From positions 1 to 54,244 of the IMG/VR virus record IMGVR_UViG_3300005468_000024: DNA of 54,244 bases, one strand, 5' to 3'. The position numbers were made by a program, and so were the translations under genes. The notes under the pieces were generated by a model. It saw only the letters and a program-made list of their open reading frames with translations, did no database searches and had not been told where the DNA came from. How positions within the stretch are numbered: the first letter of the stretch is position 1; every line of letters starts with the position of its first letter. The DNA comes from a virus. Of the stretch, positions 14,976-51,011 are shown piece by piece.

Positions 14976-15601
14976 GCGGTGACCGGCTCACCGTGGCTGT
15001 GTGCATCCCGACCATCGACGGCCGGGAGCGCATGCTGGCCAACGCCATGCGCACGGTAAGGATCCAGCGCCGCAAGCCCGACCAGATCCTGATCGAGCGG
15101 GACCGGGAAAGGACGGGCGCAGCAGCCACACGCAACCGGCTGCTGGCCCGGGTGGAGACCGACGTGATCGCCTGGCTCGACGATGATGACCTTCTGGAGC
15201 CGAACCACCTGATCGCCAACCTCCGGGTGCTCAAGGAGCGGCCGGAGGTCACACTCGTCTACCCCCGGCCACGCATGGTCGGCGGGAAGGACCCCACGGC
15301 AGTGACTTACCAGGGACGGTTCCCGACCCCTCCCTGGGGCCTGCGCTGGTGCCCGGAGTTCGACAAGCACCTGAGGATGCGCGGCTCCTTCATCCCCATG
15401 ACGCACCTCGTGCGCACGCAGGCGGTGCGCGACGCCGGAGGATTCCCGCCCGGTGAAGTCCTGCCGGACGGCCGGTACCGGGGTGAGGACGAGGCGTACC
15501 TGATCAGGCTTCTCGATCACGGCGCGGTGTTCGAGCACCTGGACGCGAAGACCTGGAAGTGGGTCGTGCACACCCGGCAAACCGCCGGACGGGGTGTATA
15601 A
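14972..15601 (+). CDS. GT-A (family 2-like) glycosyltransferase
   Basis: 209 residues. VAVCIPTIDGRERML is the nucleotide-binding strand, and RTGAAATRNRLL with VIAWLDDDDLLEPNHL gives the DxD metal site (an Asp run). EDEAYLIRLLDHGA resembles the catalytic ED region. GGAAGGAG precedes the GTG start. Likely transfers a sugar to a phage or host surface polymer. It is related to the gene at 21619: both end with a TWKWV segment. Confidence 0.85.
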   Translation: MSGDRLTVAVCIPTIDGRERMLANAMRTVRIQRRKPDQILIERDRERTGAAATRNRLLARVETDVIAWLDDDDLLEPNHLIANLRVLKERPEVTLVYPRPRMVGGKDPTAVTYQGRFPTPPWGLRWCPEFDKHLRMRGSFIPMTHLVRTQAVRDAGGFPPGEVLPDGRYRGEDEAYLIRLLDHGAVFEHLDAKTWKWVVHTRQTAGRGV

Positions 15602-15629: not shown

Positions 15630-15806
15630 ATGACCGTTTTGACCGATTCGTTAAAACCACTCCCTGACCAGCGAAAACTCCTAGGAGAAGAGGGGCTGGG
15701 CCTCGTTGAGGGGTGGTTCTGGAAGGTCCGGAGAAGGGAACCTCCGGACTTTCCTACTCTACGGACCGGTAACCAGAGCGGATCAGTCCGTTCGGTTACG
15801 GATTAA
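15630..15806 (+). CDS. 58-residue ORF overlapping a conserved hairpin element (leader-peptide candidate)
   Basis: ATG with CAGGAGGAA 10 nt upstream. It encodes LPDQRKLLGEEGLGLVEG then WFWKVRRREPPDFPTLRTGNQ. That second segment recurs word for word in a minus-strand ORF at 50339-50626, but the 66 nt behind it are identical even at silent positions and form a long hairpin. So either a short duplicated peptide or a regulatory RNA read through by chance. WFW codons just before a hairpin would suit ribosome-controlled attenuation (inference). Confidence 0.35.
   Translation: MTVLTDSLKPLPDQRKLLGEEGLGLVEGWFWKVRRREPPDFPTLRTGNQSGSVRSVTD
15659..15776 (+). repeat. Conserved leader element, copy 1
   Basis: Block A (ACTCCCTGACCAGC, 15659-15672), a 38-nt variable spacer and block B (15711-15776) recur in inverted orientation at 50450-50567 with the same spacing. 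Block B is identical over 66 nt and contains a 13-bp stem (GGAAGGTCCGGAG with CTCCGGACTTTCC, one G-U) around the loop AAGGGAAC. The spacer keeps TCCTAG and a short stem whose bases differ between copies. Confidence 0.9.
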
Positions 15807-15815
15807 TTAAACAGG
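15801..15815. promoter_or_regulatory. AT-rich site upstream of the transfer-like module
   Basis: GATTAATTAAACAGG, in the gap before the gene at 15856. A looser member of the AT-rich family. Possible promoter or operator for the genes that follow. Confidence 0.4.
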
Positions 15816-15855
15816 CATCCGTATAACGATACCTGCCGGACGAGGGAGAACGATC

Positions 15856-16113: not shown

Positions 16114-16427
16114 GACAGGACACCCGGACAAGACAAAGACAGGACAGGACACGGTGTCCTGTCCTGTCTTTGTCTTGTCTGCCCCCTTGTCCAATGCGCC
16201 CCCGGGTGCGCCCGTACACCTGTCCGTGCGCCGTCCCGGGACAGGACATCCCGGCAGGACGCTCCTGGACAGGACACGGTGTGCCAGTCCACCTGGACAA
16301 ATATGCCGCTGGACATGTCCAGTCAACGTCCTGGACAACCCCGGGTAATACAGCACTGGACAAGCGCGCTGGCTGCCCCGTACATTGACTGGACCGATTA
16401 AAGAAAATCGACCAGGGAGGACAGGCC
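16114..16427. repeat. Non-coding GGACA/TGTCC repeat field
   Basis: 314 bp without a gene. About fifteen GGACA pentamers point rightward and about five point leftward, many as GGACAGGACA, including both arms of the palindrome at 16127-16179. An AT-rich palindrome CGATTAAAGAAAATCG (16395-16410) precedes the ribosome site of the next gene. The array continues inside that gene. A cis-acting recognition locus for the downstream translocase, like the clt repeats of Streptomyces plasmids, is an inference. Confidence 0.75.
16127..16179. repeat. 53-bp perfect palindrome
   Basis: 26-bp arms (16127-16152 and 16154-16179) match perfectly around one central base. The arms are built of GACAAGACAAAGACAG then GACAGGACAC. 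No T-run follows. In RNA it would be a very stable hairpin after the gene at 15856; in DNA it could extrude as a cruciform. Confidence 0.95.
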
Positions 16428-17522
16428 ATGCGAACCAGGACAGAGCGCAGGACACGGATGGTGTCCAGGACGGTGGGGGACAAGACACACCCCGTCTCCC
16501 AGGAGTACGAGGTCCAGGTCCCGGTTGTCCCGACAGACTGGGACGCCGTCGCGCTGTCCACTGTCCGGGCCGCGACCACCCTGTCCGTCCTGGGCGCCAT
16601 GGCCTGGAGCACGGTGTCCATCGGGGACCTGCTGTCCATGGTGGCCCCGAGCTGGGTGGCGTACACCGTCGCCGGGGTCTTCGACCTGGCCTGGATCGTC
16701 TGCATGATCCTTGAATGGCTGTGCCGCTACGACCCCGCCCGTGCACGCATTCCCCGCCGGGCTGGCTGGTCGGCCCTGGGCATCAGCATGGTTCTCATCG
16801 CAGGTCACGGCTATGCATACGGCGTGCTCAACGGCCACGGACGGAGCTTCCTGGCTGTGGGCATCGGAGGTGCGCTGGTCTCCGCCATCGCGAAGAGCAT
16901 GTGGTCGGTGGTCATGAACCACACGGCCGTGAAGCTCTCCGCGGAACACGAGGAATGGCTGGCGGCGGAGCGTGCAGAGACCGGCACGGAGCTGGCCCTG
17001 ACGGCTGAGCGCCGCAGGCTCGCCCGGACACGGGACTCCATCGAAGCCGAGCGCCGCGCACTGGGGCAGGACACAACGCCGGAGCCGGACGTCCAGGACA
17101 TCCGGCCGGAGCCGGACGGGACACTGTCCGCCTCCCTGGACACGGACAAGGAAAAGGCTGTCCGGGCACTCGCCAAGGCCATGGACATCCCCGTGGAGCT
17201 ATTCGGCCTGGACAGGACAGCCGGACAGGACACGGACAGCCGGACAGGACAGCCGGACAGGACAGCCGGACAGGACACGGACAGCCGGACAGGACGGCCG
17301 GACAGGACACGGACAGTCGTCCCCCTGGACAGGACACGCAGTGTCTCGTCCTATGTCCTGTCCCTCCTGTCCGAAGCGCCGGACATGGACGGGACAGCGG
17401 TCAGGACAGCGGTCCGGCTCGAATTCCCGGGCGCCTCGGAGGACAGCATCGCCAAGGCGATCACCCGCACACGTCTGAAGATCAGGAACACCGAGAAGAG
17501 GGATGGAGAGAACCATGGCTGA
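16428..17522 (+). CDS. SpdB-like (DUF2637-type) four-helix membrane protein
   Basis: 364 residues. Four predicted membrane spans (TLSVLGAMAWSTVSI; AYTVAGVFDLAWIVCMILEW; LGISMVLIAGHGYAYGV; FLAVGIGGALVSAIAKSMW) precede a cytoplasmic coiled region (AEHEEWLAAERAETG) and a low-complexity stretch DRTAGQDTDSRTGQP. The C-terminus (SVSSYVLSLLSEAPDMDG...AKAITRTRLK) looks like a winged helix. This layout is that of SpdB/DUF2637 proteins of Streptomyces conjugative plasmids, thought to help spread plasmids between hyphal compartments. GGGAGGACAG lies upstream. Codon choice is bent toward GGACAGGAC repeats, as if the DNA sequence itself were selected. Confidence 0.7.
   Translation: MRTRTERRTRMVSRTVGDKTHPVSQEYEVQVPVVPTDWDAVALSTVRAATTLSVLGAMAWSTVSIGDLLSMVAPSWVAYTVAGVFDLAWIVCMILEWLCRYDPARARIPRRAGWSALGISMVLIAGHGYAYGVLNGHGRSFLAVGIGGALVSAIAKSMWSVVMNHTAVKLSAEHEEWLAAERAETGTELALTAERRRLARTRDSIEAERRALGQDTTPEPDVQDIRPEPDGTLSASLDTDKEKAVRALAKAMDIPVELFGLDRTAGQDTDSRTGQPDRTAGQDTDSRTGRPDRTRTVVPLDRTRSVSSYVLSLLSEAPDMDGTAVRTAVRLEFPGASEDSIAKAITRTRLKIRNTEKRDGENHG
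17221..17316 (+). repeat. Tandem CCGGACAGGACA repeats in coding sequence
   Basis: Six head-to-tail units of 19, 13, 13, 19, 13 and 19 bp: CCGGACAGGACACGGACAG or CCGGACAGGACAG. Units of 13 and 19 bp change frame, yet the gene stays open through them. Part of the same GGACA field as 16114-16427. Confidence 0.95.
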
Positions 17523-24679: not shown

Positions 24680-24904
24680 ATGGCACGCAAAACCGACTAC
24701 CCCACAGGCAATCCGAACGGCATGTCGTTCATCGGCAACAAGTGGGTGTTCACCGGTCCGCAGGGCTACCGCGTCCAGAAGCAGGGCGACAAGTGGAGCG
24801 TCGTCTCGTACACCGCGAACGACACGCGTCCGGTGTCCAGCGGTGCCCGGATGACCGAGGACGACGCGCACGCGCTGGCAGCCGAGCTGGCCGGAGGTCA
24901 CTGA
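24680..24904 (+). CDS. Hypothetical 74-residue protein
   Basis: Strand-rich (MSFIGNKWVFTGPQGYRVQKQGDKWSVVSY) with a C-terminal helix (EDDAHALAAELAGGH). Probably a small beta-sheet fold. 2-nt gaps to both neighbours. Confidence 0.65.
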   Translation: MARKTDYPTGNPNGMSFIGNKWVFTGPQGYRVQKQGDKWSVVSYTANDTRPVSSGARMTEDDAHALAAELAGGH

Positions 24905-24906
24905 CC

Positions 24907-25383
24907 ATGCCGATTCGCGATGTCCTCCAGGCAGCCCTCCGTCGGCTCAGCTGGTCTCAGCACGAGATCGACACGGCGCTGACCGAGCTCCAGGAGGACG
25001 TACTGACGGACCCCACGCTGTCCGACCACACGGCCTACCGGGAACTGGCGGACGCAGTGGTGGAGCAGATCGGCTGGCTCTCCGGGGACGGGGACAGCTG
25101 GGACGGCGACGACGACGAACTGACCATCCTGAAGAACTGGCTCACGGTCTCCGGGAAGTGGCTGCCGGAGATGTACGCACACCTGACTGCGGAGAAGATC
25201 AGGTTCTGCTGCAACTGCCTCGCGGGAGCGGGCTCGTGCGATGCGGCGGCCGACCGGATCGACCCGTGGCTCTCCAGCACGGAGCACGAGAGCTGGGGAA
25301 CTCTGGTCCGGAAGTCGGACGGCACCGAAGTGCCCTGGAAAATCATGAACGCCGTGGAAGTCCTGAGGAACAAGGAGAAGTGA
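24907..25383 (+). CDS. Hypothetical 158-residue acidic protein
   Basis: Helical (VLQAALRRLSWSQHEIDTALTE), an acidic patch SGDGDSWDGDDDE and a Cys pair RFCCNCLAG. Not recognised. 2-nt gaps to both neighbours. Confidence 0.65.
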   Translation: MPIRDVLQAALRRLSWSQHEIDTALTELQEDVLTDPTLSDHTAYRELADAVVEQIGWLSGDGDSWDGDDDELTILKNWLTVSGKWLPEMYAHLTAEKIRFCCNCLAGAGSCDAAADRIDPWLSSTEHESWGTLVRKSDGTEVPWKIMNAVEVLRNKEK

Positions 25384-27203: not shown

Positions 27204-27308
27204 TCATCGCTATCCCCCGATAAGGCGAAACCGGCGCGAGCCGGTCGGCCGGAGATCACCTCCCGGTCCTGACGAGCCAGGTCAGTCCAACTGAATGACG
27301 GAGAGATC
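27204..27308 (+). other. Intergenic hairpins and CAACTGAA leader motif
   Basis: ACCGGC-GCGA-GCCGGT (27230-27245) and CTGAC-GAGCCAG-GTCAG (27269-27285) are perfect small hairpins. CAACTGAA lies at 27288-27295, 14 nt before the next ATG. The region may be a worn tRNA-like element. Confidence 0.5.
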
Positions 27309-37288: not shown

Positions 37289-37379
37289 GCCTCCGTAGCT
37301 CATATGGACAGAGCGCCGGACCCCCACGTTTGACAGTGGGGGTATCCGGAGGCAGCAGGTTCGAATCCTGCCGGAGGCA
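37289..37379 (+). tRNA. tRNA with extended anticodon arm (anticodon uncertain, TTG possible)
   Basis: 91 nt. Acceptor GCCTCCG/CGGAGGC and T-arm GCAGG-TTCGAAT-CCTGC are perfect; the D-arm is GCTC-ATATGGACA-GAGC. The anticodon stem CCGGA/TCCGG encloses 24 nt instead of 7: CCCCCAC pairs with GTGGGGG around GTTTGACA, with TA bulged. So the arm is either about 12 bp long with an 8-nt loop, or carries a roughly 17-nt insertion. TTG (Gln) fits a T33 reading; TGA or GAC are alternatives. Confidence 0.65.
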
Positions 37380-37420
37380 CGCAAGACCAGACGATCACAT
37401 CCACCGATCAAGGAGTCCTC

Positions 37421-40773: not shown

Positions 40774-41721
40774 TCACTCGGTCCAGTACGAGCCACGGAC
40801 CAGACGATGGGCGACGCTTGCGTTCTGTCCCTCGGGGTTGTGGACGAAGACCTCGAACCGGAGCTCGTATCCGTCGTCCAGGACTCCCCCGGCGGAGAAG
40901 TCCAGGTAAGCGTCGCCGCCTGATCCAGGAGAGTACCGGTCAATGGCCAGACCGTTGGAATGCACGCCGTCGGCCACCCGGTAGTGGAAGAACCGTCCCT
41001 GCACCTTGACGTCGGGAGCCAGGTCCCTCAGCCGCAGCTGCACCAGGGCGTGGTAGCCGAAGCCCGGTCCGAGGATGGTGGGCTTCTCGGTGAATCCGAG
41101 CGTCTGCCACTGCTTCGGCTCGACGGCCGTCAGTTCGGGAGAGGTGACCGACAGGGACTTCACTTCGTCCTCCAGGGGGACGGGCGGTGCGGGGTTCTTG
41201 GCGCGGGCGATGATGCCCGGCATGAGTACGTTGTGGAACTGCTTGACGCGTGCGTCCCCGGGGCAGGAATGCAGGTCGGGGTTCCAGGTTCTGAAGAGCC
41301 TGTGGTAGCCGAAGCCCGGCTCCCCCGGTCCGGGGCAGACGCGCAGGGGAATGCCGTGCTCCTTGTGCACCCACACCCCGAGCTTGATCATCGTCTCGAT
41401 CTGTGCAGGGGTCCACGGGTCCGTGGCGCCGAGGTTGGAGGCGGACTCCAGACTGATGGCTCCCGTGCCGTCCGGCCGCTTGTTGGCTGCTCCGGTGGCG
41501 TCCGCCCGCGTCTGCGTGCCGATGAACTGGCCGAGGGACCCGTCATAGTCGAGTCCGAAATGGGACTCCAGGTTGGTGCTGTCCCGCCAGTATTCGTAGA
41601 TCCTTTTCTCGTCCCACGGTGCTGTGATCGAGTGGAAGATCAGTTGCGTCGGCCGGATCGCCGGTTGGCTGTCACTCTCGGGCTGGAGCTCCATCCGGAT
41701 GGCTCCGCGATACCAGCTCAT
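40774..41721 (-). CDS. Endolysin: N-acetylmuramoyl-L-alanine amidase
   Basis: 315 residues from ATG 41721 (AAGGAG 8 nt upstream; an earlier GTG at 41742 lacks one). The N-terminal ~190 residues are an amidase-2/PGRP domain: LIFHSI (first zinc His), ATDPWTPAQIETMIKLGVWV, and DLHSCPGDARVKQF (His and Cys ligands). The C-terminal part (~200-315: FGYHALVQLRLRDLAPDVKV, AYLDFSAGGVLDDGYELRFE) is beta-rich and probably binds the wall. No signal peptide, so it needs the holin encoded just upstream. Confidence 0.92.
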   Translation of the reverse strand: MSWYRGAIRMELQPESDSQPAIRPTQLIFHSITAPWDEKRIYEYWRDSTNLESHFGLDYDGSLGQFIGTQTRADATGAANKRPDGTGAISLESASNLGATDPWTPAQIETMIKLGVWVHKEHGIPLRVCPGPGEPGFGYHRLFRTWNPDLHSCPGDARVKQFHNVLMPGIIARAKNPAPPVPLEDEVKSLSVTSPELTAVEPKQWQTLGFTEKPTILGPGFGYHALVQLRLRDLAPDVKVQGRFFHYRVADGVHSNGLAIDRYSPGSGGDAYLDFSAGGVLDDGYELRFEVFVHNPEGQNASVAHRLVRGSYWTE

Positions 41722-42025
41722 CGGGATTCTCCTTGGTTGCACGGCTCAGTATTATGATCATGAAGGTCTGGTACCAGAGTACAAAACCCACGGTGACCTG
41801 GAGCCCGACCCAGACGACGCTGAACCAGGCCGGGTTGATGTGGAGCACAACGGCAGCTGCGAAGATCCCCGACATGCCCGTTTCCGCCATGGCGTACGTG
41901 GCCAGCATGCGGCCGGTGTGCGACTTCCACCAGGCTGTCACATAGCTGTAGACGAGAAGCATGGCGAGACCGGCCGTGCAGGTGAACGTACCGGAAACTG
42001 CATAGACCACTTCCGTGCTGGTCAC
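41672..42025 (-). CDS. Holin-like membrane protein
   Basis: 117 residues, GTG start (GTGA overlap). Spans VYAVSGTFTCTAGLAMLLVY, MLATYAMAETGMSGIFAAAV, FSVVWVGLQVTVGFVLWYQT; charged C-terminus. Location directly before the endolysin (50-nt overlap) supports a holin role. Sequence family not recognised. Confidence 0.75.
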   Translation of the reverse strand: MTSTEVVYAVSGTFTCTAGLAMLLVYSYVTAWWKSHTGRMLATYAMAETGMSGIFAAAVVLHINPAWFSVVWVGLQVTVGFVLWYQTFMIIILSRATKENPDELVSRSHPDGAPARE

Positions 42026-42237
42026 TTCGCGCCCCCAAGGGCTTCTTTGATCGCTCGGGCGAAGTTGTTCTGTTCGCCGTACCGCTTGAGAATGTCGGCT
42101 TTCCTGGTGATCTCAGGGGTGTCCCGCTCTGCCTTCCGGAGGTCTCCGCTGGCCTTGGCCAGTGCCTTGTCCGCCTGCACCTGACCCTTGGACGTGCCGG
42201 TTTCCTTATCCTTCCGCAGAAGCTTTAGCAGCCCCAT
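42022..42237 (-). CDS. 71-residue charged protein in lysis cassette
   Basis: ATG 42237 preceded by AAAGGGG. MGLLKLLRKDKETGTSKGQV, then KASGDLRKAERDTPEITRKA. Highly charged helix. Not recognised; possibly a holin accessory. Confidence 0.62.
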   Translation of the reverse strand: MGLLKLLRKDKETGTSKGQVQADKALAKASGDLRKAERDTPEITRKADILKRYGEQNNFARAIKEALGGAK

Positions 42238-42526
42238 GACCGCCCCTTTCACTGTTCATCCCGGCTACCTGGGGGAGCGCCTGGATCACGCTGGTACTGA
42301 CTTTGTTGGCCTCCAGGAGTGTGGTCACTTGCTGCCGCAGGACTTCGTTGGCGTCCTGGGATTTCTCGTATGCCGCGCGCCACGTGTCGATCTGCTTGTC
42401 CTTGTCGGCACGGATGTCATCGAGCATGGCGCGCGGGATCAGCTTGCCCCACAGCACGAGGAGAACCACCAGGGTCAGAATGCCGGTTGCACCGGCCGTC
42501 GGAGTGAGGAACGACGTGAATTCCAT
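42206..42526 (-). CDS. Single-span membrane protein, second holin candidate
   Basis: 106 residues from ATG 42526 (GGGAG 6 nt upstream). One span TGILTLVVLLVLWGKLIPRA followed by a coiled region (DKDKQIDTWRAAYEKSQDAN). Type III-like or accessory holins have this form. Overlaps the next gene by 32 nt. Confidence 0.68.
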   Translation of the reverse strand: MEFTSFLTPTAGATGILTLVVLLVLWGKLIPRAMLDDIRADKDKQIDTWRAAYEKSQDANEVLRQQVTTLLEANKVSTSVIQALPQVAGMNSERGGHGAAKASAEG

Positions 42527-42527
42527 T

Positions 42528-42809
42528 TCATACTCCCGTGACCGGGGTGACGTCGTCCCAGCCTGTGGCATCGACAGGCTCACGGTTGTAGACCGCCTGG
42601 CGGACCTGGTCGAGCGTTGCTTTCAGTTCCGCATCGGTGATCACGCCTTTGTCCACCAGGGACTTCATCAGGATGGCGGTCACCGTCAGGTTCGAGAGCA
42701 TGAGCGCCCGCATCGGAGCGTCCGACATGGACAGGTCGGTACCGAACTTCAGGGCCACGTCGTACTGAGCGTCCCGCAGATTCTTGACGTACTGCTTGAT
42801 CGTGGCCAC
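42528..42809 (-). CDS. Hypothetical 93-residue helical protein
   Basis: GTG start with AAGGAGA. MATIKQYVKNLRDAQYDVAL; all-helical: LTVTAILMKSLVDKGVITDA, LKATLDQVRQAVYNREP. Often seen between tail fibre and lysis genes of actinophages. Function unknown. Confidence 0.7.
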   Translation of the reverse strand: MATIKQYVKNLRDAQYDVALKFGTDLSMSDAPMRALMLSNLTVTAILMKSLVDKGVITDAELKATLDQVRQAVYNREPVDATGWDDVTPVTGV

Positions 42810-42818
42810 GGACTCTCC

Positions 42819-43340
42819 TTACAGCGGCAGAACGACGATCTCTCTGAAAGAGAACGAGGCTGTGGTGGCCGACTGGCTCACGTACTTCATGGTGAAGGTA
42901 TTGGAGCCAGGCGTCAGGGTTTCCTTGCTACAGGCCCCGTAACGGCACGGGTTGGTGGCTGAGGCACCGTCGCGGGCGATCCGGCGGGAGTTGTCCGCAC
43001 CCTGCGTCGTAGCCCCGGAGATGGCGAACGAGGCACTTGCGCTGCCGTCCACGGTGCCGTTGTCGAGTGTGGCATTGATCCAGACGATTGCAGCCGATCC
43101 GGTGGTCACGGTGACGGCAGGGCCCGGGGTCGCCAGGTCGACATAGGACGTGGACGTCGTCGTCTCCGTCGTGTCGATCCGCTGGTTGCTGAAGCTGCGC
43201 GCCGCAATCGAGTTGGCGCCGGTCGCCACGAAGAGCTGACCGCTGGTGGTGGCCTTTGCGGGAGATGTCTCGTTCAGGTTGTCGCGGATGTAGGTGTTGA
43301 ACTGAGCGGCGGTGAAGATGCTCCCCGCCACCGCGGTCAT
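42819..43340 (-). CDS. Minor tail / appendage protein
   Basis: 173 residues. MTAVAGSIFTAAQFNTYIRD then NLNETSPAKATTSGQLFVAT is a frequent start of actinophage tail-tip proteins; the rest is a beta sandwich (TVTTGSAAIVWINATLDNGT). Likely a tail tip or receptor-contact component. Confidence 0.75.
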   Translation of the reverse strand: MTAVAGSIFTAAQFNTYIRDNLNETSPAKATTSGQLFVATGANSIAARSFSNQRIDTTETTTSTSYVDLATPGPAVTVTTGSAAIVWINATLDNGTVDGSASASFAISGATTQGADNSRRIARDGASATNPCRYGACSKETLTPGSNTFTMKYVSQSATTASFSFREIVVLPL

Positions 43341-43391
43341 TGGCGCTGTCCAGGTAATTTGGACCGCCCCCTCTCTGGCTGTGTCCGACGA

Positions 43392-43751
43392 TTACCGGGG
43401 GTCGACTCCGTTGGCTGCGTTCTCTTCGCGGAGCTGTTCGACGCTCTGGCCGTGCTCGATGCGGAAGCGCACCGCGGTTTCGTGATCCGCCGGATACCAG
43501 TTCCGGGTATGGGGGATCGGGCGGAGCATCAGGACTTCCATCAGCCCGCCCATGTCGGAGGGCCATTCGATTACTGTGTCCATACCGCAGTAGGTGCAGT
43601 GGAACGACGGTGCCTGAATGGTGCGGGGCCCACCCTTGCGGATGGGGAGGTAGAGGTGGTCCACGTTGCCGCAGCCGGGGCGCGGGCAGTCGGCCACCCA
43701 GTCCCCGGCATACACATATGCGCGGGCCACCGTCTTCAGCAGCATGGTCAT
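43392..43751 (-). CDS. Zinc-ribbon protein in tail operon
   Basis: 119 residues. DCPRPGCGNVDHLYLPIR and SFHCTYCGMDTVIEWP give C-x4-C and C-x2-C metal ligands. Overlaps the large minor tail gene by 4 nt. Role unknown; may be structural or regulatory. Confidence 0.7.
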   Translation of the reverse strand: MTMLLKTVARAYVYAGDWVADCPRPGCGNVDHLYLPIRKGGPRTIQAPSFHCTYCGMDTVIEWPSDMGGLMEVLMLRPIPHTRNWYPADHETAVRFRIEHGQSVEQLREENAANGVDPR

Positions 43752-46099
43752 GTCGCGAATACTCCTAGATCGAATTGCCCCCGGATGGGGTCGTCGAAGG
43801 TGAACACCGAAGCGGGGTCGTCCGAGCTGAGCGGATCGAAGACACCTTCATCGAATCCGGCGCCGCGTTTGTCGAACGTGAAGGGGTTCGACTCCACGGC
43901 TTCCGGCTCTTTCTCGCAGCCGAGCACGACGGAATGGACCGGCTCCTGATCGCTCCAGATGCGGCGGATATCGTGGGTGACCCGCTCCACGAAGAAGTCG
44001 GAGTTCAGACCCATCTCGTCGTTCTGGACGGTGATCCTGTCGGACACCGTCCGTGTCACCACCTGGTTGAAATGGGACGGGTCCTTGGAGGCGACGCGCA
44101 GCTGAATGATCGGTTTGCGCTGGGCATAGCGGAACACGATCTTTGACGCGACGGCCAGCGCGTCGTGCACGTTCACCCAGGGGACGGTGTCCGGGTACGA
44201 GCGGTCCCCGTGCTCGCCGACGGAAGCACTGTCCACCTGACTGATGTTGATCGTCCGCTGAACCGTGACCGGCCGCGCCCGCACCTGGAGATATGTGATC
44301 ACAGCTGTGCCGCCGGTAGATGTGATCCGCAGGATGATGGACTGTCCGCTGGTCCGGTTGAAGGTCGCAGTCACGACCGGTCCGGCCGCATAGACGATGT
44401 CCGTACCGTCGATCAGATCCTGCGCATCCGTGAACGGCTCGGAACTGGAGATGTGCAGGGAGATCGTTTCGTTCGGTCCGACGACCGTGGTCGACTCGGA
44501 CGACCAGACGACTTCCAGTTCCAGCGACGGGGTGCGCTCCCCCACTTCGATCTGCGCTTTGTTGATGATGTCCCGCCAGCCGTGCGCGTAGGTGAACGGG
44601 GCCGTGTAGTTGAAGCCGGTCACGGGCGGGGCCGCGCAGTCGATCGCTTCAGCGGCGAACCGTCCCTGCGAGATGACAGAGTGCTCCCGCACGATCCGGT
44701 GGTGCCGGTCGCGGAAGACGAACGTACCGTCGGGTGCCTGGTAGGCCATGGCGGGCGGACCTTCGGACCGGACGATCTCCTGCATGGCGGCAAAGGCGTC
44801 CGTGCCGTCCACCCACCAGTAGGGGAAGAACGACGCGCCCAGGTCGATGTCCCTCGGACCGGTCCATCCGATCTCGTCCAGGATGACGCTCACGGCCGCG
44901 CCGGAGCGGATCGAGGTGTACAGAGCAGTGGACAGTTTGGTCCCCTGGAGCAGCGCCTGTCCGTCCAGGAAGGTGAAGGATGCCGTACGGCTCTTGCGGT
45001 CGGAGCTGACGTTGTAGTCGTCGATCCGGCCGCGGAAGAGCGGATAGGTCACGCCGCTGTAAGTGACCTGAGCACGGGTTTCCCGGGCGGGGTCCAGATC
45101 ACCGAACAGGGGAGAGCTGGCGTTCTCCGGACTGTAGGTCCGGCCGGAGTTGTTCAGGTTGAAGGCCATCGTGCCCACGGACGTCGGGGAGAGCTGACGC
45201 TCCTGGTCCCGGCCGTAGCCGACGGAGATTCCGGCGCTGGTGATGTCCTGGCTGACTTCCTCGTTCGGGTCGGTGAAGTCCCCGTCCGCATTCCAGTCGA
45301 TGGCGAAGGAGTACTGCGCGCCGGACACGCAGAAAGCCCATGTCGGCTGGACCACCGTCACCGAGGGGTTGTACGCCGTCCCTGTGGCGGAGGCCAGTCC
45401 GGCGGGGGCCTGCGTACTGCCCGCAGCGGTCGGCGGCCGGATCGCCAGCGTCGACATGTTGTTGCCGAAGTACGGGGTGTTACTGGCCGTGGTCTGGCGC
45501 AGGGCCGAGGTACCGGTGGACACCGTGGCGTTGGAGTCGTACAGCGCTACGGACAGCTCCCCGAAGCCGTCGGTGTCGTCCACCCGTTCGGCGTCCCCGC
45601 CCACCGAGTCCGTGAAGGTGCACGCCACCAGGGCACTGGCAGCCCGGAAGGTCACGAGCCAGCTGTTGGCGGAGGTGACGTTGATCTGCGGGTGATCGAC
45701 CGTGGTGCTCGGGTTGGTGGTGTCGTCGGGCTCCCAGTCGTTCAGCGGCGTGGTCAGGTGCGTCCCGGACCAGGCCGCGATGAAGGACAGGATGTTGGGC
45801 GTGCCCGAGGGATAGGAACCCGAGGGGTAGGTGACCGAGACGTTCGCACCTTCGGAGCCGGTGGCGATGCGCCAGAAGAAGGTGGTCCGGGGCCAGGGGT
45901 GGGGGGCCGACTGGTCGTACCGTCCGGCAGTCATCAGGACGTTCCACCCGGCGGGAGTGGTCTCGTCCGTCCGGCTGTCCTGCGTGCTGAACATGATGAG
46001 CAGGTCGTTCGCGACCACACCCGCGGGCATGGGGACGTTCTTGGCACCGCCTCCGATGGTCTTCAGGCGGGCTCCTGCGGCGCGGAACGCGATAGCCAT
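43748..46099 (-). CDS. Large minor tail protein
   Basis: 783 residues. The N-terminal third is jelly-roll-like (VVANDLLIMFSTQDSRTDET, SFIAAWSGTHLTTPLNDWEP). In the middle lies one unit of the motif PAGLASATGTAYNPSVTV, also seen in the repeat protein at 52652. Then FAIDWNADGDFTDPNEEVSQ and RELxxPSxVGTMxFxLNN-like text that resembles tail-tip baseplate proteins. Follows the tape measure, as expected for a distal tail protein. Confidence 0.82.
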   Translation of the reverse strand: MAIAFRAAGARLKTIGGGAKNVPMPAGVVANDLLIMFSTQDSRTDETTPAGWNVLMTAGRYDQSAPHPWPRTTFFWRIATGSEGANVSVTYPSGSYPSGTPNILSFIAAWSGTHLTTPLNDWEPDDTTNPSTTVDHPQINVTSANSWLVTFRAASALVACTFTDSVGGDAERVDDTDGFGELSVALYDSNATVSTGTSALRQTTASNTPYFGNNMSTLAIRPPTAAGSTQAPAGLASATGTAYNPSVTVVQPTWAFCVSGAQYSFAIDWNADGDFTDPNEEVSQDITSAGISVGYGRDQERQLSPTSVGTMAFNLNNSGRTYSPENASSPLFGDLDPARETRAQVTYSGVTYPLFRGRIDDYNVSSDRKSRTASFTFLDGQALLQGTKLSTALYTSIRSGAAVSVILDEIGWTGPRDIDLGASFFPYWWVDGTDAFAAMQEIVRSEGPPAMAYQAPDGTFVFRDRHHRIVREHSVISQGRFAAEAIDCAAPPVTGFNYTAPFTYAHGWRDIINKAQIEVGERTPSLELEVVWSSESTTVVGPNETISLHISSSEPFTDAQDLIDGTDIVYAAGPVVTATFNRTSGQSIILRITSTGGTAVITYLQVRARPVTVQRTINISQVDSASVGEHGDRSYPDTVPWVNVHDALAVASKIVFRYAQRKPIIQLRVASKDPSHFNQVVTRTVSDRITVQNDEMGLNSDFFVERVTHDIRRIWSDQEPVHSVVLGCEKEPEAVESNPFTFDKRGAGFDEGVFDPLSSDDPASVFTFDDPIRGQFDLGVFAT

Positions 46100-49700: not shown

Positions 49701-50058
49701 CGAGAACCACTCCCATCGACTTCATGAAACTCGCGGACGCTTCCTCTTCGTCCACCCACCACAGCGGAGCGCCCGGCTCCCGCGCGGCAGGCTCCCTGAC
49801 CTTCTGTCCCGGTACCGTCCACCCGGCCACGCCCAGCTGCTCGTCGAACCTGCGGCGTACGTCCTCGTACTTCTCGTTCTCACCGACAGGCAGGCGCTCG
49901 GTCATGGCGTAGTAGACGACGTTCAGGAATCGGTCGGCAGGGAGATCGCTGAGATCGACACCTCGGCTTGAGTGTTCTCCGTCGAGCTCGTGCCAGATTC
50001 CGGGCTGGGTGACCCATCCGAGGAGCGCTCGGATGGCAGGGTAGGGCGCATCCCGTAC
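49693..50058 (-). CDS. Tail assembly chaperone, downstream frame (T extension)
   Basis: Open in the -1 frame relative to the upstream chaperone, from just after a TGA at 50059-50061. It reads RALLGWVTQPGIWHELDGEH, then GVDLSDLPADRFLNVVYYAM and TERLPVGENEKYEDVRRRFD, the usual body of such extensions. No ribosome site at the internal ATG (49905) fits, so it is most likely made as a fusion by -1 frameshifting. A canonical slippery heptamer was not found. Confidence 0.75.
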   Translation of the reverse strand, partial: VRDAPYPAIRALLGWVTQPGIWHELDGEHSSRGVDLSDLPADRFLNVVYYAMTERLPVGENEKYEDVRRRFDEQLGVAGWTVPGQKVREPAAREPGAPLWWVDEEEASASFMKSMGVVLDG

Positions 50059-50342
50059 TCACTCATGATCCACTGAACGACGTCGTTCACCTGGTCCAGT
50101 TCTATGGGGTGCTGTGGATCACCCATCCTGGCCCGGAAGTGCTGGAAGGACTCCGGTACCAGAACCGTCTCCAGAACAGTGACCATGGCGAGCTGAGCCT
50201 TGGCTCCGTCGTTCTCGTCCATGCCCTCGAACTGCGTGGCGAAGTCCATGAGCGTGTCGGCGGGAAGAGCCGGGGCAGCCTCGAAGACGTCGCCGTCGAT
50301 TTCGAACTTCAGTTCCTTGCGCACCTTCGTGAAGCTCTTCAT
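49923..50342 (-). CDS. Tail assembly chaperone, upstream frame
   Basis: 139 residues from ATG 50342 (GTG 50351 possible). Helical DVFEAAPALPADTLMDFATQ, then IELDQVNDVVQWIMSEYGM. The last ~40 residues are Ser-rich filler after the likely frameshift site. No Shine-Dalgarno is visible; its ATG overlaps the stop of the ORF at 50339-50626 (ATGA), so it may be started by translational coupling through the duplicated leader element. Confidence 0.8.
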   Translation of the reverse strand: MKSFTKVRKELKFEIDGDVFEAAPALPADTLMDFATQFEGMDENDGAKAQLAMVTVLETVLVPESFQHFRARMGDPQHPIELDQVNDVVQWIMSEYGMRPTLPSERSSDGSPSPESGTSSTENTQAEVSISAISLPTDS

Positions 50343-50626
50343 GGTCGACACCGTACGCGGGGATCAGACAAGATCATTCCGGAGGATGTTCCGGAGCCTG
50401 GTATACGGAAAGCCGTATACCTATGTGGTAGCTCTTCGTAGGGTTCGTCCTGGTTACCGGTCCGTAGAGTAGGAAAGTCCGGAGGTTCCCTTCTCCGGAC
50501 CTTCCAGAACCACCCTGGTACCTGTTTATCTAAATCAGATTCTAGGAATAGTGGCTGGTCAGGGAGTTGATCGTTTCGGCACCTCTGTCCGGTTCCCCTC
50601 CCGGACGGGGAAGACCGTATATCCAT
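50339..50626 (-). CDS. 95-residue ORF through the duplicated element (uncertain)
   Basis: Runs across the second copy of the 66-nt element and ends in the chaperone start (ATGA). It shares LPDQ and then GWFWKVRRREPPDFPTLRTG with the ORF at 15630. The rest has no recognisable fold. A weak ribosome site. Either a leader peptide coupling into the chaperone or simply an open frame over an RNA element. Confidence 0.3.
   Translation of the reverse strand: MDIRSSPSGRGTGQRCRNDQLPDQPLFLESDLDKQVPGWFWKVRRREPPDFPTLRTGNQDEPYEELPHRYTAFRIPGSGTSSGMILSDPRVRCRP
50450..50567 (-). repeat. Conserved leader element, copy 2 (inverted)
   Basis: Block B at 50450-50515 is the exact reverse complement of 15711-15776. 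Block A (GCTGGTCAGGGAGT on the plus strand, 50554-50567) has the same 38-nt spacing. The spacer here contains the AT-rich palindrome CTGTTTATCTAAATCAG (50522-50538). Located before the tail chaperone and tape measure genes. The whole 50352-50636 gap is otherwise free of clear genes. Confidence 0.92.
50522..50538. promoter_or_regulatory. AT-rich palindrome before tail genes
   Basis: CTGTTTATCTAAATCAG, arms CTG-TTTA/TAAA-CAG with one bulged base. Member of the GATTTA..AAATC family, inside the spacer of leader copy 2. Confidence 0.55.
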
Positions 50627-50636
50627 ACCTTCGGTC

Positions 50637-51011
50637 TCAGCGCGTCCGGGATCCGATCAGCGCCTTGAGCAGGAAATTGTTGGGCTTGGTTCCGGGGTGG
50701 TGGACCACCCGGGCGAAAACGGTCTTGCCCCTCACCTCGAACTTCAGCACCTTTTTGTTCCGCGGGCGGATCTCGTGAGGGTTGGTCCCGTGGATGACAA
50801 AGCTCGTCGCGGGGTGGTCGCACATGACGATGCCCAGGGGCGCCGGTCCGCCTTTGAAGATCGGGCGGATGTGGTGCTTCATCGAACCGGGGGCGAGCAG
50901 CCGGGCACGGGCAGCGACTGCTTCGGTCTTGAGGGCGATGTGAGCAGAAGCCGTCTTGCGGGCAAGGCGCATGGCCTTCTCCGGCGACACGGTGATGAAG
51001 TCCTTGGCCAT
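50637..51011 (-). CDS. Head-tail connector (HK97 gp10-like)
   Basis: 124 residues. MAKDFITVSPEKAMRLARKT, helix, then IVMCDHPATSFVIHGTNPHE and KFEVRGKTVFARVVHHPGTK. Position between the tail terminator and chaperones, and the basic beta part, match gp10-like connector or stopper proteins. Confidence 0.72.
   Translation of the reverse strand: MAKDFITVSPEKAMRLARKTASAHIALKTEAVAARARLLAPGSMKHHIRPIFKGGPAPLGIVMCDHPATSFVIHGTNPHEIRPRNKKVLKFEVRGKTVFARVVHHPGTKPNNFLLKALIGSRTR

Follow-up and report, generated by a model that had tools for sequence, protein, structure and literature searches.

A dispersed non-coding element of related phages and its possible role as a transcription-control cassette

The stretch of viral DNA analysed here (54,244 nt, IMG/VR record IMGVR_UViG_3300005468_000024; hereafter the window) contains two copies of a dispersed non-coding element of about 200–240 nt, which also occurs in related phages. 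We are virtually certain that this element constitutes a genuine family reaching beyond near-identical phages. Judged from sequence and placement, it may be a cis-acting DNA cassette for transcription control, tolerant of orientation and located at operon junctions, a tentative reading whose chances we put somewhat below even. The element is a testable regulatory or structural unit common to a phage group known from metagenomic records, and a profile is available for its recovery. If it is a control cassette, scattered phage operons would be wired together independently of orientation; if it acts as a fold of RNA or single-stranded DNA, it would represent a family absent from Rfam 15.

Two copies in the window and the family to which they belong

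The element was first noticed as a long inverted pair. Positions 15711–15776 (+) equal the reverse complement of 50450–50515 (copy 2, minus strand) in 66 out of 66 nt, as the first-pass annotation had stated, and an exact match of 66 bases within 54 kb rules out chance. Likewise, the companion 14-mer ACTCCCTGACCAGC was confirmed 38 nt upstream of this core in both copies (15659–15672 (+) and 50554–50567 (-)); its family-conserved part is CTGACC[A/T]G. Together with the motif TCCTAG, which had also been reported, it lies inside a second inverted pair, 15659–15684/50542–50567. Copy 1 extends over 15632–15831 (+), equivalent to model positions 29–228 of 240 in a full-length profile, lacks the 5' CCGTAT palindrome, and is flanked by a glycosyltransferase gene (end at 15601) and a small gene (start at about 15857). 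Copy 2 extends over 50394–50628 (-), model positions 4–229 of 240, between a connector-type gene (50637–51011) and a tail chaperone gene (49923–50351). The limits of both are those of profile matches in the near-identical genome G001, carried over via the alignment of the window with G001. Compared with each other, the two copies are saturated outside the core, and each is sense to the module downstream of it.

The genome extends beyond the window. G001 (IMGVR_UViG_3300005518_000002; 81,859 bases, 120-nt terminal repeat) matches it at 99.5–99.7% in three large blocks and has both copies at the corresponding places, where they form its sole long-distance inverted pair of exact 20-mers. A third record, IMGVR_UViG_3300028380_000098 (L012), contains copy 2 with 1 substitution in the 66 nt, located at the base of the stem described in the first-pass annotation. 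The phage genome encodes siphophage-type tail genes, a ParB-like protein and a TraB/FtsK-like protein. The latter shares 47.5% identity with a protein of pS1D4-14.2, a 98.8-kb Streptomyces plasmid annotated with, among others, portal, major capsid and tape-measure proteins. The host of the carrier phages is probably an actinobacterium; the carriers met so far are all metagenomic records. Outside the window, at G001 41258–44644 (L009 1258–4644), there are genes matching Pfam Tet_JBP, Ploopntkinase3 and ADDT (amino acid:DNA transferase), which suggests DNA hypermodification. The Tet_JBP-type family, assigned by Pfam on the G001 member, is present in six out of six element carriers compared and in none of four non-carriers; as these genomes are few, related and partly fragments, the link to the element is a lead only.

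Several other features of these genomes were recorded. A perfect 26-nt inverted repeat with a 1-nt centre (16127–16179) is located shortly after the gene following copy 1, and tandem GGACAGGACACGGACAGCC-type repeats (17210–17331) lie inside the frame 16428–17522, near the TraB-like gene. Streptomyces TraB systems recognise DNA via short repeats. Matches to type II hammerhead ribozymes were found in a tRNA gene region, in the window at 27223–27286 and in G008 (L109 6936–7004). At 37289–37380, both Rfam and ARAGORN report a tRNA gene, with an incomplete anticodon in ARAGORN. On pS1D4-14.2 (L094, L095), ATTAATTAA followed by AAACC occurs at seven intergenic places, several of them beside a hairpin; G001 has ATTAATTAA once, after copy 1.

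That the element is a family became evident from G008, in which self-comparison yielded four dispersed intergenic copies of 190–225 nt with a recognisable window core. Two sequence patterns gave 24 extracted copies, and a sequence-only core model of 98 nt, built from 21 copies, detected 33 copies in 19 out of 24 related records. These records were hand-picked, 17 having already been matched by pattern or relation and two of the seven others holding a copy, so that 19 out of 24 is not a prevalence. G001 has 2, G008 4 and G013 5 copies, all three genomes with end repeats (G013: 84.1 kb, 127-nt end repeat), and 4 copies were found in the 87.8 kb of G010, where no end repeat was seen. By the core model no full copy is present in G006, G005, G004, G002 or plasmid pS1D4-14.2; over a set of 61 sequences it returned six copies, two from the window and a single one from each of L017, L018, L019 and L021. 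With the full-length profile, E values for the copies of the compared genomes are 1.3e-37 or better, partly by construction. By the same profile, G006 has one truncated copy at the adaptor junction (model positions 3–102 of 240, E 2.8e-4), oriented like the full copies there. The first 24 copies were fetched via patterns that demanded conserved bases, therefore the invariance of these bases is partly a matter of selection; nine profile-found copies show exceptions. Of the 24 extracted copies, 22 were used for the length of the 62-nt region described below and 21 for alignment, model, consensus fold and energies; from the 33, we used 30 for mismatch counts, 31 for boxes and 29 for arm tests, perfect helices and spacing. 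The non-redundant set comprises 16 copies, and the copies of G001 are represented by those of the window.

Searches of databases returned little beyond these phages. For the window elements Rfam 15 gave sub-threshold matches only, with E 0.99 or worse and none at the gathering score, in agreement with the earlier statement that no known RNA class was recognised; at the gathering score there was no match for the element in G008 either. With blastn, three copies against phages and two copies against plasmids produced nothing or chance-level short matches, and a search with the model R1 recovered the known copies, weak hairpin-only matches and nothing else. A widespread host repeat was rejected, as two exact patterns had no match in the GTDB species genomes. 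At the level of titles and abstracts, the element is not described in the phage and regulatory literature surveyed.

Anatomy, genomic junctions and folding

In the orientation of the first-pass annotation, the element begins with a CCGTATnn/ATACGG end, followed by GTTAC, CTGACC[A/T]G and a 62-nt region of saturated sequence (61–63 nt in 22 copies). Thereafter come AGAnGGnAACCTC, nine variable bases, CTACnCTACGnA..GTAA, GGTAACCGTATAG and a final CCGTATA. These blocks are not universal; for instance, three copies have AGCCTC and three have GTAG for CTAC. From TGACC to AACCTC, 25 out of 29 copies measure 74 nt and the other four 73 or 75 nt; the mean identity of the region in between is 40% among the 16 non-redundant copies.

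Both ends often carry an outward CCGTATA box. Copy 1 has one at 15819–15825 (+), 37 nt ahead of the next start codon (ATG), and copy 2 has one at its gene-facing end (50402–50408 (-)) and another at the opposite end (50615–50621 (+)). With at most one mismatch, the box is found at 65% of gene-facing ends and 61% of other ends (n=31), compared to 2% of random windows; 53 positions were searched at the 5' end, compared to 30 for 3' end and background alike, which gives a slight advantage to the 5' end. The gene-facing box is no better conserved (mean mismatches 1.29, other end 1.23), and the centre of the element is better conserved than its ends. A start codon follows the box at 18–38 nt in 21 of the 31 copies, whether sense or antisense, and at 52–91 nt in seven; no start was found in three. 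Only eleven of the 21 closely spaced boxes have at most one mismatch. Outside the elements, two exact CCGTATA were counted in six carriers, as a Markov model predicts; an avoidance of this sequence, strong against the base-composition expectation, vanished against the Markov expectation and was discarded. Consensus scans showed no sigma-70-type promoter and no simple terminator at either window copy; a terminator alone would in any case be insufficient, leaving the 66-nt identity and the 14-mer at fixed distance unexplained.

The elements occupy the same junctions in different phages, with one orientation per junction. All copies between the glycosyltransferase and the small-protein gene are sense (window copy 1, G008 at 60 kb, L137, L175), as are all between the connector and the tail chaperone gene (window copy 2, L122, L125, L136, L140); those at the head-tail adaptor junction are all antisense (L128, L126, L134, L174, L180). 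Altogether, 31 copies could be placed in context; relative to the nearest called genes, 21 are sense and 10 antisense. In 29 of them the closest called frames on either flank are co-directional; L130 and L176 are the exceptions, with an opposite upstream frame. Where the glycosyltransferase junction has no copy, the gap measures 43 nt (G006), 6 nt (pS1D4-14.2), 87 nt (G010) or 80 nt (G002), and G005 has a different neighbour there. The adaptor junction without a full copy is 7–17 nt long in four genomes and 113 nt in G006, where the decayed copy resides; the tail junction without element measures 36 nt in G005, 179 nt in G013 (coding sequence still included) and 376 nt in G002. The short junctions of these relatives are too divergent to fix an insertion point. 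A different inverted pair, 73% identical, was observed in G002 (24845–25002 / 50735–50888; L020, L105), again at the tail junction; it contains GTGTGG/CCACAC repeats as well as nested inverted repeats. Sharing the junction and not the sequence, it was left uncounted as a family member.

At the tail junction, a further motif deserves attention. The tail gene with its start at 50351 has no Shine-Dalgarno sequence, which confirms an earlier observation. Its likely leaderless promoter is the motif CCGGAATGATCTTG at 50369–50382 (-), outside the element and kept in relatives without it. L014 and L015 (neighbours 54–56% identical) have the same gene order with a 36-nt gap according to simple gene calls; read by eye, this gap contains CCGGAAnGATCnTGG, after which TAnnnT occurs a few nt ahead of the ATG. 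The CCGGAAnGATCnTGG/TAnnnT motif is conserved before the tail chaperone ATG in the window (50352–50385), in L014–L020 and in pS1D4-14.2, and the window keeps its first part at 50369–50382, downstream of copy 2. Judged from its conservation, the motif is likely to be a leaderless late promoter, apparently an older one, with copy 2 lying between it and the upstream gene. Such a promoter would explain a tail gene without ribosome site, and with an independent promoter-like motif between copy 2 and the tail gene, the element would not be needed for the tail unit. Elsewhere in the window, at 1154–1256, two 38-nt arms that are 92% complementary overlap the end of the frame 17–1201; one of them includes GATCTTGG, a sequence shared with the putative tail promoter motif.

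Two regions of the element can form hairpins. Hairpin A belongs to the 62-nt region (15675–15730 (+), where it is weak, and 50495–50551 (-)). Hairpin B (15721–15754 (+) and 50472–50505 (-)) is the 13-bp stem with the 8-nt loop AAGGGAAC reported before, and within the 66-mer it folds as described (-29.6 kcal/mol, z -2.1, 5 of 200 shuffles as good). At 118 nt, the copies are matched in stability by many shuffles (62 and 24 of 200; z -0.44 and -1.33). RNAalifold found no consensus fold for 21 copies, with three invariant pairs and 0 co-varying pairs; therefore the arms of each copy were tested for pairing against the arms of other copies. Own arms scored 8.41 versus 6.70 for swapped ones in hairpin A (p=0.0002, n=29) and 5.09 versus 4.39 in hairpin B (p=0.0004), and six other region pairs gave p values of 0.14–0.99. 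For the 16 non-redundant copies, p was 0.0001 and 0.006, respectively. Perfect helices of at least 8 bp are formed by hairpin A in 10 out of 29 copies, with 0.39 expected. Hairpin B is less robust, showing no excess in clade i when only Watson-Crick pairs are counted (p 0.23). Thus, the stem of the first-pass annotation holds in so far as the arms of its region co-vary in the family; in many copies, however, the stem differs or is weaker. A short spacer stem with changed bases and kept pairing, also proposed there, is by eye out of register between the two window copies; a longer co-varying stem does exist in the family.

Hairpins A and B share bases and would therefore partly exclude each other. 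Column-wise covariation in an ungapped alignment shows no clear helix, because the stems shift in register, and stable consensus folds exist only within clades, being slightly more stable on the reverse strand among the values listed. Fold energies, too, slightly favour the reverse strand. G-T and A-C mismatches are balanced in helices of at least 8 Watson-Crick pairs (23 versus 23, no strand bias) and not significantly different over 30 folded copies (53 versus 44, p 0.42); in the 13 strongest hairpins they number 23 versus 9. Allowing G-T or A-C brought no consistent gain in the arm test. Hairpin A of the window copies is weak by energy and middling by pairing score (z 1.5 and 2.2). Pairing between the two ends of a copy is not superior to pairing with the ends of other copies (p=0.14).

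Possible functions

If the element is a control cassette, as we tentatively propose, the gene-facing CCGTATA box would be a promoter or part of one, and the central blocks would bind a common phage or host regulator, making scattered operons respond together. The foldable centre might form a cruciform, or a hairpin active in transcripts of either strand, where it could, for instance, insulate the upstream operon; if the 66 nt comprise the bound core, this would explain their identity between the two window copies. The near-fixed block spacing despite the saturated sequence in between points to such a cassette, and so do the box-like ends near start codons in both orientations, the co-directional flanking frames, the recurrent junctions with constant orientation and the covariation of the arms. 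The balance of mismatches in the longer helices is as expected of an element acting at the DNA level. Among the mechanisms suggested in the first-pass annotation, twin promoters are the candidate that comes closest to this evidence, through the box-like ends near start codons; of the 21 boxes at 18–38 nt from a start, only 11 have at most one mismatch. Against a control cassette speak the gene-facing box being no better conserved than the other one, the failure of the sigma-70-type scan at both window copies, the separate promoter-like motif at the tail junction, and relatives that lack the element at the same junctions or, like G006, have a truncated copy only. Moreover, co-varying arms are unusual for a protein-bound double-stranded site, and the G-T excess in the 13 strongest hairpins would favour a sense-strand RNA; the energies lean slightly the other way. 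A bolder version, which appears rather unlikely to us, would see here a new class of double-ended, orientation-independent phage control elements, in which a centre extruded as single-stranded DNA (or a hairpin of either strand) and a phage-specific factor couple distant operons. A Tet/JBP-type DNA-modification gene coexists with the element in the carriers examined.

The co-varying arms, the surplus of perfect helices and the G-T pairs of the strong hairpins would also suit a small non-coding RNA gene in each copy, whose product acts in trans through hairpins A, B and the core, so that orientation is irrelevant. We consider this unlikely, given that 21 copies yield neither a consensus fold nor a co-varying pair, that G-T is not in excess in the longer helices or over 30 copies and does not consistently help in the arm test, and that the two hairpins share bases. 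Independence of gene orientation is also expected of a multi-copy DNA site (origin-, parS- or clt-like) that serves replication, partition, transfer or packaging, to which the palindromic ends and repeated GTAAC motifs read by eye, the phage-plasmid-like genes (TraB/FtsK-like, ParB-like) and a foldable centre suited to single-stranded DNA could be related. Such a site is quite unlikely: G006, G005, G002 and pS1D4-14.2 do without a full copy yet share the large primase-type and other replication-type gene families, and in four genomes the GC-skew extremes are not consistently matched, with a copy within about 0.3 kb of an extreme in G008 and within 2 kb in G013. An old non-autonomous mobile element, MITE-like and by now largely fixed at its sites, would account for the inverted ends TATACGG/CCGTATA, for junctions that hold a copy in one phage and are short in its relatives, for both orientations and for the decayed copy in G006. 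We regard it as improbable, since conservation is higher in the centre than at the ends, the ends of a copy show no preference for pairing with each other over those of other copies, the window copies are saturated outside the core and the GTDB genomes have no match to two exact patterns.

The remaining idea of the first-pass annotation was an RNA acting in cis; it could be an attenuator equipped with a leader peptide or, in the manner of put/nut, an antitermination leader for the two modules. This idea draws on both window copies being sense to the following module, and on two stem regions in about 118 nt and two copies heading two units, which resemble HK022 putL/putR (PMC9378689). The leader peptide did not survive comparison: the open frame with WFW is broken at both copies in the 99.5–99.7% identical G001, upstream of copy 1 by a 1-nt deletion that shifts the ATG out of frame and upstream of copy 2 by a TGA. 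A shared leader RNA in cis is likewise not supported, given ten antisense copies out of 31 and no consensus RNA fold over 21 copies; with a third of the copies antisense, mechanisms that work on the sense strand only do not fit. Together with the promoter-like motif between copy 2 and the tail gene, this makes an RNA acting in cis highly improbable.

Relation to known systems

MITE-type elements are short and non-coding, have inverted ends and show both occupied and empty junctions. The element is likewise short and non-coding, and related phages have junctions with and without a copy; the outward CCGTATA boxes at both ends are candidate inverted repeats, but the two ends of a copy pair no better with each other than with exchanged ones. 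Moreover, its centre is better conserved than its ends, and the same junctions are kept in divergent phages.

A different resemblance is offered by HK022 putL and putR, two related copies of about 70 nt with two stem-loops, heading two gene blocks, the RNAs of which act in cis on the sense transcript (PMC9378689). In the window, too, two related copies stand ahead of two gene blocks. Unlike put, the element is antisense in 10 out of 31 copies, and its two co-varying stem regions share bases and favour no strand.

The SAS/ESAS of cluster K mycobacteriophages are dispersed non-coding repeats tied to particular gene starts across relatives (PMC3203893). The SAS is the 13-bp asymmetric GGGATAGGAGCCC, located 3–7 bp from start codons in 11–19 copies with nearly always one orientation, about half of them with inverted repeats (PMC3203893). 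The SAS consensus has five chance-level matches with 1–2 mismatches in the window, where 2.4 are expected, and none in the two elements. With about 230 nt, 2–5 copies, both orientations and another sequence, the element differs from the SAS; dispersed non-coding repeats near particular gene starts are common to both, here in a probable actinobacteriophage genome. The element stands apart from both systems and is closest in kind to the SAS/ESAS repeats and closest in layout to HK022 put.
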